Both the position numbers and the translations under genes were made by a program. 12,392 nucleotides of DNA from Campylobacteraceae bacterium (GTDB taxonomy: Bacteria; Campylobacterota; Campylobacteria; Campylobacterales; Sulfurovaceae), in NCBI GenBank assembly GCA_027083075.1, contig JALWQQ010000239.1, forward strand, positions 1-12,392, read 5' to 3'. Below the pieces are notes generated by a model. That model saw only the letters and a program-made list of their open reading frames with translations. It made no database searches and was not told the origin of the DNA. The first letter of the stretch is position 1. Each line of letters starts with the position of its first letter. Of this stretch, positions 7,439 through 12,392 are shown piece after piece.

Positions 7439-7476
7439 GTAGACATAGCAAAAGGGATAGGGGAAAAATCGGAAGA

Positions 7477-7545
7477 TTATAGGTAAAGAGATAGGAGTGT
7501 GCTGTCGTGCTTGATAATGACATGCTGACGGATAATCGTTTTCAT
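7477..7545 (-). CDS. Leucine-rich leader peptide of leuA (22 aa), LeuL-like
   Basis: A 22-codon ORF upstream of leuA and too short for normal gene calling. It begins MKTIIRQHV and ends STLLSLYL. Six of the last codons read CTC CTA TCT CTT TAC CTA, giving four Leu codons in the last six before TAA. AAGGAG at 7552-7557 precedes the ATG with the ideal 6-base spacing, much stronger than the site of leuA itself. It lies just after a consensus promoter and ends about 100 bases before leuA. A ribosome short of charged tRNA-Leu should pause at these codons, which is the logic of leucine attenuation known from enterobacterial leuL. An in-frame ATG at 7566 is too close to the expected transcript start to be used. 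No relationship in sequence to enterobacterial LeuL is claimed. Confidence 0.7.
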   Translation of the reverse strand: MKTIIRQHVIIKHDSTLLSLYL

Positions 7546-11937: not shown

Positions 11938-12016
11938 AGTGAAGGGTGAAGAGTGATGAGTGAAGAGATAAGGAGTAGGGGCTTTAGCCCCGTCTTTTTA
12001 GTGAAGGGTGAAGGGT
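11938..12016. repeat. Degenerate 7-bp tandem repeats flanking a GC-rich hairpin
   Basis: From 11938 six consecutive 7-base units are readable: AGTGAAG, GGTGAAG, AGTGATG, AGTGAAG, AGATAAG and the degenerate GAGTAGG. After the hairpin at 11978-11991 the array resumes at 12000 with AGTGAAG, GGTGAAG and GGTG. The 14 bases AGTGAAGGGTGAAG occur exactly twice (11938-11951 and 12000-12013). The region fills most of the 157-bp hisH-hisA gap, and its composition differs from the coding sequence around it. Confidence 0.8.
11978..11999 (+). terminator. Hairpin with T-tract on the plus strand between hisH and hisA
   Basis: GGGGCT (11978-11983), TT, AGCCCC (11986-11991), then GTCTTTTT. It has the form of an intrinsic terminator for plus-strand transcripts, yet both neighbouring genes are on the minus strand. 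In the minus (his operon) direction the stem is not followed by a T-run, so it should not stop his transcription. It may be part of the repeat element or stop antisense RNA. Confidence 0.55.
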
Positions 12017-12073
12017 GTTTGTGTGCATTGCTTTGCGATCTTTTTTGAATCTGTTTTGTTTGCATGGATATCC

Positions 12074-12392
12074 TTAGAGGTTGATAAAGTTTTCGATGAT
12101 CTTCAGACCGTTGTCGTGACTCTTTTCGGGGTGGGGTTGGATGCCGTATATGTTGTCGTTTTGTACCGCACTGACAAATGCGTAACCGTAGTGTGTCTTG
12201 CCGATGACATATCGGTCGTCGCAAACTGCATGAAAAGAGTGGACAAAGTAGAGATAAAAGGCTTCGGGTAGTCCGGCAAAGAGTTTGCTGCTATTTGGCG
12301 GGGTCAGAGCCGCAGGCGATGCATCGCTTCGCAACATATCATCGGAGCTCAGACCCCTAAATAGTTCATTCCAGCCCATATGCGGTACCTTA
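12074..12392 (-). CDS. hisH: Imidazole glycerol phosphate synthase glutaminase subunit HisH, C-terminal part (cut by window edge)
   Basis: HisH releases ammonia from glutamine and passes it to HisF, giving imidazole glycerol phosphate and AICAR. The visible 106 residues start at KVPHMGWNEL, the conserved class I amidotransferase segment. They continue through YLYFVHSFHA and KTHYGYAFVSAVQ to the catalytic His and Glu in GIQPHPEKS and the terminal helix. The nucleophile Cys lies beyond the edge. Odd feature: between GWN and FVHSF there are 40 residues where Escherichia coli HisH has about 21. The extra residues (from RGLSSDD to AALTPP) are encoded by an imperfect palindrome at 12300-12357. The frame stays open and the later catalytic motifs are intact, so the protein is probably functional with an extra surface loop. 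Confidence 0.95.
   Translation of the reverse strand, partial: KVPHMGWNELFRGLSSDDMLRSDASPAALTPPNSSKLFAGLPEAFYLYFVHSFHAVCDDRYVIGKTHYGYAFVSAVQNDNIYGIQPHPEKSHDNGLKIIENFINL
12291..12364. repeat. Palindromic element inserted in frame in hisH
   Basis: The inner arms GGGGTCAGAGC (12300-12310) and GCTCAGACCCC (12347-12357) are complementary at 10 of 11 positions. They enclose a perfect inner palindrome GCGATGCATCGC (12316-12327). Outer flanks CTATTT (12291-12296) and AAATAG (12359-12364) also pair. The GGGGTC...GACCCC span is 58 bp, close to the size of the excess in the encoded protein (about 19-20 codons). This makes it look like a small inserted repeat of REP or Rickettsia-palindromic-element type. 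No second copy is in this window. Confidence 0.7.

Follow-up and report, generated by a model that had tools for sequence, protein, structure and literature searches.

What is a palindrome doing inside the reading frame of hisH in a Sulfurovaceae bacterium, and how did it come to be translated? The window, by which we mean the whole stretch of 12,392 nucleotides analysed here (contig C239, from a fragmented assembly of 1.39 Mb in 296 contigs that is 83% complete), ends within this gene, which encodes the glutaminase subunit of imidazole glycerol phosphate synthase (12074..12391, minus strand). The gene is recognized by a GATase match, and HisH of a relative (L008) matches TIGR01855. Its 5' end is missing at the contig end, and a full-length protein (P0050, 223 aa) has the same C-terminal part and the same loop as the window HisH. 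The initial annotation had described an intact frame through the insert, and the minus strand is indeed open from 12391 to 12074, right across the palindrome. The host sequence GWNELF (12359..12376, minus strand) precedes the insert and LFAGLPEAF (12257..12283, minus strand) comes after it. From GWN to FVHS there are 40 residues in the window HisH, as had been counted before, and 21 in insert-free relatives, whose existence was confirmed when the HisH proteins of relatives were compared. Solved HisH chains likewise lack the stretch in three alignments, where they match as far as GWN(E) and again from near the YFVHS strand.

The element itself occupies 59 nt (12300..12358, minus strand; model match of 73.5 bits); it belongs to what we call the long class, reads AGGGGTCTGAGCTCC...CTCTGACCCC in the sense direction and is translated as RGLSSDDMLRSDASPAALTP. 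The palindrome lies where the initial annotation had put it: 11-nt arms with one mismatch (12300-12310 and 12347-12357) belong to a 58-bp core, GGGGTC...GACCCC, spanning 12300-12357, and the wider extent that had been proposed (12291..12364) is explained by complementarity of the host flanks CTATTT and AAATAG, which prolong the stem beyond the element with a small bulge. The perfect 12-bp inner palindrome, GCGATGCATCGC, is present as well (12316-12327), but it is off the hairpin axis, and as aligned copies mostly have GCGATGAATCG at this place, it is not the symmetry axis of the family. With 23 of its 26 pairs formed, the family hairpin fits the hisH copy better than any other of the 24,666 window positions on both strands, although this ranking is partly circular, as the hisH copy is among the 23 copies aligned. 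One pair (11-50) shows a compensatory double change in hisH, from C-G to G-C. RNA folding of the palindrome is modest (z -2.38, with 3 of 200 shuffles equally good), and it is the other genomic copies, not folding energy, that are the decisive evidence for the palindrome being no product of chance. The hisH copy is 83% identical to a copy of a relative, and with such divergence it is no recent arrival.

That the same repeat might occur elsewhere in the genome had been suggested from the window alone, and this turned out to be the case. A covariance-model search of the source genome (E <= 1; 150 of the 513 first-look candidates were scored, and 31 copies built the model) gave 31 matches, corresponding to 30 places, since two of them are the two strands of one place. 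This model (RNAalifold structure, mixed alignment), in which misalignment of the short class leaves only 19 positions paired, was used for searching only. Blast with a relative's copy gave 24 matches in the source genome at E <= 0.1, many of which cover just 16-17 nt at an end of the element. Matches at E <= 0.001 were found in 42 of 150 genomes of the same family, the source genome included, and in 8 of 11 genera; for the good-quality genomes of the family sample the figure is 22 of 88. Two classes can be told apart, a long one of 59 nt with variants of 55-56 nt (arms TCAGATGAT...ATCGTCTGC) and a short one of 54 nt (arms TCAATGACAATGC). The element ends read AGGGGTC(T/A)GACC. The short class is in the majority in the source genome; the hisH copy is of the long class. 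Among named genomes the pattern was met in 21 stretches, 12 of them labelled Sulfurovum and 6 from other Campylobacterales-type or Nitratifractor assemblies. Two stretches of Alcaligenaceae CAII-53 (L078 and L085) and one of a Rickettsiales assembly (L079) hold apparently unrelated GGGGTCTGACCCC palindrome clusters sharing the terminal motif. The relatives and the named records carrying the element suggest that the source organism is Sulfurovum-like. A short-class copy was also seen on a contig classed as viral (L087, IMG/VR, 33,677 bases), at 7441-7494.

The hairpin is conserved. In an alignment of 23 copies of 59 nt, the class on which alone pair counts were made, 96.3% of the 598 cells of the 26-pair hairpin are paired, while structures slid along the same alignment as a control pair only 33-45%. 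Compensatory change affects 12 of the 26 pairs, with 34 cells altered on both sides, a level reached by none of 500 shuffles. As the copies are related and partly coding, these figures speak for a palindrome that has been kept, be it by selection or by template-switch correction; its maintenance could stem from the latter rather than from mobility.

Copies of the element are found in intergenic DNA and within genes, both those for proteins and that for RNase P RNA. In the source genome, its in-frame hosts among family-matched open reading frames are hisH, folC (matched by NCBIfam, with no Pfam match at 1e-5) and alaS; folC carries the long class in two stretches and the short class once, and the alaS copy is of the short class. 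Hosts in relatives are pyrD, alaS, an sdhA/frdA/nadB-like flavoprotein gene, the ciaB/DUF7897 family (in several genomes), an mnmC2-like gene, rqcH/NFACT, a cobT-like gene, hemW and the genes for a Cu/Zn transporter, phosphomannomutase and dihydroorotase; L178 was not counted as a verified host, as neither NCBIfam (1e-20) nor Pfam (1e-8) assigned it to a family. The flavoprotein gene has three tandem-pair sites in G009 and a fourth site in G163, G168 and G169. Homologous sites without the element exist. The folC gene lacks it in all 14 readable relatives (19 loci taken), G004 having another, longer loop. For alaS, 12 of 15 readable loci (19 taken) are free of it, and the other three comprise one with the element (G006), one with a degenerate trace (G001) and one with another insert (G009). 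It is absent from pyrD in 4 of 6 genomes, a further 4 of the 10 genomes searched giving no match, and at flavoprotein site D (12 readable of 14 genomes) six genomes are without the element, three have it and three have other inserts. What we see is a dispersed, multi-copy palindrome within a genome, which also lies in frame in intact, unrelated genes with insert-free homologues. In the phosphomannomutase gene of G006 (L177), a PPITNHESPITIH stretch beside the short-class element looks like another translated repeat.

The long class is read in a single frame. All 14 verified sites (hisH, folC, alaS, the ciaB family, pyrD, flavoprotein A-D, mnmC2, rqcH, cobT-like, hemW and the Cu/Zn transporter) use the frame RGLTSDD...SAGLTP; this count omits the dihydroorotase copy L169, whose ends are rearranged, and the YidD copy L071, in which the element lies near the end of the open reading frame. 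Exactly three frames are open in 25 of the 31 long-class copies of the coding set and in 9 of 12 outside genes and rnpB. Were three frames equally likely, 14 of 14 would occur by chance about 2 times in 10 million, or about 2 times in a million if flavoprotein A-C are counted once (12 sites), but proteins may tolerate some of the frames better than others, and so targeting does not follow from the use of a single frame. Of 25 short-class copies outside genes and rnpB, 21 have one open frame, which is also the one used by the three coding copies of this class (L002, L112 and L177). In alaS and folC of the source genome, the short class is read in another frame than the long class, giving a different peptide (GQTRNDNAKALSLRSDP and variants). 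Unit length is a multiple of 3 in 28 of 31 coding copies, which are not independent of one another, versus 22 of 52 elsewhere. Judging from protein sequences, GGTCTGACC at both ends may allow a 45-nt unit of the long class to be duplicated or deleted in frame, which would leave RGLTP footprints.

The element is not confined to proteins. It lies within bacterial RNase P RNA (RF00010) in 16 of 40 loci scanned, the source genome included, with 15 of 20 coming from a set partly chosen for rnpB-like flanks and 1 of 20 from a second set. In the source genome (L052) it is found at the tip of the helix after ACAGAGAGUAGACC, which we take to be P12. Three of the 16 RNase P copies (L145, L150 and L153) have the opposite orientation, so that both orientations occur in rnpB, as would be allowed where no reading frame matters.

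Comparison of HisH proteins shows that the loop is a turnover site, occupied in relatives by two other dispersed repeats. Of the 120 best protein matches, 111 have a loop exceeding the plain spacing of 29 residues; this sample was ranked by similarity to an insert-bearing query and is hence biased. Labels given from amino-acid patterns with hand corrections divide these 120 into 41 with the GGGGTC element, 17 with VGAD...CPLF, 21 heptamer-like (e.g. IRNEKLEIRN), 15 with MEDGR repeats, a mixed TST group of 11, 9 plain, and 6 with a GLTP-like remnant, of which 3 are clean short footprints (P0017, P0054 and P0055). Two of the other insert types were searched for as dispersed repeats. The GTAG palindrome of the G026 HisH loop had 22 matches in that genome, hisH included (a reversed control pattern gave 0); the same pattern gave 0 matches in G017, where it did not fit the variant present. 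The heptamer of the HisH loop had 18 partly overlapping matches in G036, hisH included, 18 in the source genome and in G012 only 2, both at hisH. On a tree built without the loop, the labels need 49 changes (the least possible is 6 and the shuffled mean 71). This tree is weakly supported, with 13 of 116 inner branches starred, and the starred branches force at least 6 changes for the element alone. P0057 and P0083 have identical kept columns and different inserts, and P0063 carries VGAD in tandem with the GGGGTC element. Of the 29 best-scoring hisH loci, 25 are from the same family, and 11 of these have a loop of more than 29 residues; in the 4 from other families it is plain. Genome G012 has two hisH-like genes (L042 on C66 and L015 on C46), one with the palindrome in its loop and the other with an IRNEKLEIRN-type insert.

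The insert had been supposed to form a disordered surface loop, and an AlphaFold2 model of P0050 (38 sequences; mean pLDDT 76.1) agrees with this in part. Residues 121-124 and 126-150 have pLDDT below 50 and no secondary structure, and the second half of the model is only moderately confident. Very low confidence fits a disordered loop, but the insert covers approximately residues 130-154, and the weak stretch begins ahead of it and includes conserved residues beside the insert, GWN among them, so the low confidence describes a broader region than the insert alone.

How the element moves can be approached from its flanks and from the transposases present. No target-site duplications were seen by eye in comparisons of the pyrD and flavoprotein sites. 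In pooled sets, pairing between the two host flanks of the element exceeds that of shuffled flanks. Taken by set, none of 200 shuffles was as low for the rnpB copies (n=16), 31 of 200 were for coding copies without the flavoprotein site (n=28) and 184 of 200 for copies outside genes and rnpB (n=36). We thus rejected flank pairing as a general feature of coding copies, the pooled signal stemming from rnpB and the flavoprotein site. At the latter, the flank stems of G163 and G169 differ and still pair perfectly, which fits template-switch extension there. As regards transposases, a mobilizing RAYT gene had been postulated, and one Y1 transposase domain gene (PF01797) is present in the source genome; the domain was found in 8 of 8 genomes examined. 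The gene of the source genome is bounded by a perfect 21-bp inverted repeat, TAGGGTCAGGCGTTGAAAATT, beginning TAGGGTCAGG... Against the REP-associated transposase model NF047646 (80-bit cut-off), its product scores 67.6 bits, below the cut-off, and that of G016 81.2, above it. Terminal repeats of the form (T/A)AGGG(G)TCAG stand on both sides of 5 of 22 Y1 loci, several of which are cut by contig ends. The element and these terminal repeats have about 8-9 end bases in common and not the whole element. Such similar termini are a lead rather than proof, and they suggest that Y1 (RAYT/TIRYT) transposases probably move the element as single-stranded DNA.

We consider it very probable that the palindrome in hisH is a copy of a hairpin element, non-autonomous and about 54-60 nt long, which has spread in Sulfurovum-like Campylobacterota and is translated where it sits in tolerant loops. 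The spread is shown by the many copies, the conserved hairpin and the homologous sites with and without the element. In protein genes, only copies with an open frame at a tolerant loop would survive, adding about 20 mostly polar residues; we infer that such loops are tolerant, that the insert is disordered and that its peptide has no function. The initial annotation, which held that a repeat family had landed in hisH and been kept as protein, was right in substance, as genome copies and insert-free relatives testify. An ordinary, lineage-specific HisH loop in which the palindrome is a mere coincidence could be imagined, given that the HisH loop of a same-genus genome (G001, L009) is slightly long and lacks this palindrome and that folding alone is unimpressive (the z of -2.38 given above). 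However, the genome holds numerous copies of this nucleotide element, with rnpB and unrelated genes among their sites, and they bear compensatory changes; the genome-wide copies rule this idea out, and we leave it practically no probability.

It is also conceivable that what has spread among proteins is a selected peptide module with a function of its own, such as that of an interaction tag. Usage of one frame at all 14 long-class sites and the conserved peptide GLTSDD...SAGLTP would agree with that, but the short class of alaS and folC in the source genome is read in another frame as a different peptide, RNase P RNA holds the element in both orientations, the HisH loops of relatives hold other repeats instead, and some HisH proteins retain just a short RGLTP-like remnant. 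We thus regard a peptide module as quite improbable. A more serious competitor, though still an unlikely one, is spread without any transposase, with hairpin-driven template switching during replication, or recombination, copying repeats between sites. On one hand, the flavoprotein flank stems that differ between two relatives and yet pair perfectly, as well as the occupation of the same HisH loop by heptamer repeats without transposase-like ends, speak for it. On the other hand, flank pairing is not general (no excess over shuffles is left once rnpB and the flavoprotein site are set aside, and the pairing at rnpB may reflect a pre-existing stem), dispersal to unlinked genes requires copying at a distance, and Y1 transposases with similar ends exist. 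A non-autonomous element translated in tolerant loops is the reading we prefer. A bolder extension of it, which we put forward tentatively and hold to be somewhat less likely to be true than false, is that Sulfurovum-like bacteria possess "landing loops": HisH, AlaRS and the SdhA-like flavoprotein, together with the RNase P hairpin loop, may repeatedly take up unrelated dispersed repeats, duplicate them, lose them and swap one for another, with the GGGGTC palindrome being suited to genes by its one preferred frame and by a 45- or 42-nt unit that may be copied or deleted in frame.

In-frame palindromes are already in print from Rickettsia and, as GTAG/CGTC REPs, from other bacteria. The parts of PMC10969869 and PMC6649704 concerned with Rickettsia palindromic elements describe them as multi-copy, translated repeats of about 150 bp lying in frame in unrelated genes, each family encoding a conserved peptide. 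By this description our element is alike in being a multi-copy palindrome translated in frame in unrelated genes, and it differs in its size of about 59 nt, in its Sulfurovum-like host, in being present in RNase P RNA as well and in having a HisH site common to other repeats. The idea that this is repeat-to-protein conversion outside Rickettsia holds as an instance but not as the first, since the relevant sections of PMC3733652 report GTAG- or CGTC-tagged REPs inside open reading frames of several non-rickettsial bacteria, over half of these REPs being dimers or groups encoding 20-30 residues, and list Sulfurovum NBC37-1 with both repeat types. Identity with such REPs was rejected: unlike them, the element has no conserved GTAG tag (of the 83 copies whose flanks could be read, 5 have GTA immediately in front of GGGG) and ends as given above, and no CGTC end was found in the copies inspected, which had been gathered with a pattern or model that includes the GGGGTC end. 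Y1 genes with such terminal repeats are named TIRYT in the same paper, whose sections on them and on TIRtrons give a GGGGWSAS motif common to some of their terminal repeats and report none inside proteins or rnpB; one strand of our element begins GGGGTCAG, fitting this motif, but only the first 8-9 bases are in common. As far as PMC6649704 describes them, the palindromes of Nematomorpha mitochondria also coexist with coding function, template switching being proposed to keep their arms alike, but they are long perfect inverted repeats of mitochondrial genes, presented as distinct from the Rickettsia elements.

Within RNase P RNA, a different kind of repeat is known from cyanobacteria. STRR repeats lie inside rnpB like our element, but they are tandem heptamers, not a palindrome that also enters proteins. 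Our literature searches found no description of the GGGGTC palindrome element and no report of such an element in RNase P RNA. As far as these searches show, what is new is the element itself, with its many housekeeping-gene hosts and its copies in RNase P RNA, and a HisH loop common to unrelated dispersed repeats. Protein-coding palindromes are best known from Rickettsia, and here we have a comparable system in housekeeping genes and in a ribozyme. As many related genomes show sites with and without the element, one can ask whether its survival in frame reflects pure selection or targeted insertion; the rate of insert turnover and the role of the Y1 transposase become addressable questions too. 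The system is also a warning that an unusual loop in a protein from a metagenome may be a translated repeat.

The neighbourhood of hisH in the window holds further repeats. Between hisH and hisA there is a GTAG-type REP followed by a T run (11975-11991, GTAGGGGCTTTAGCCCC), and a palindrome similar to this REP flanks a Y1 transposase gene in G025 (L098). Heptamer-like repeats, GTGAAGG/GTGAAGA, are located in the same intergenic region at 11938-11966 and 12000-12017, and they resemble inserts in the HisH loops of other species (VKSEERRVKS).
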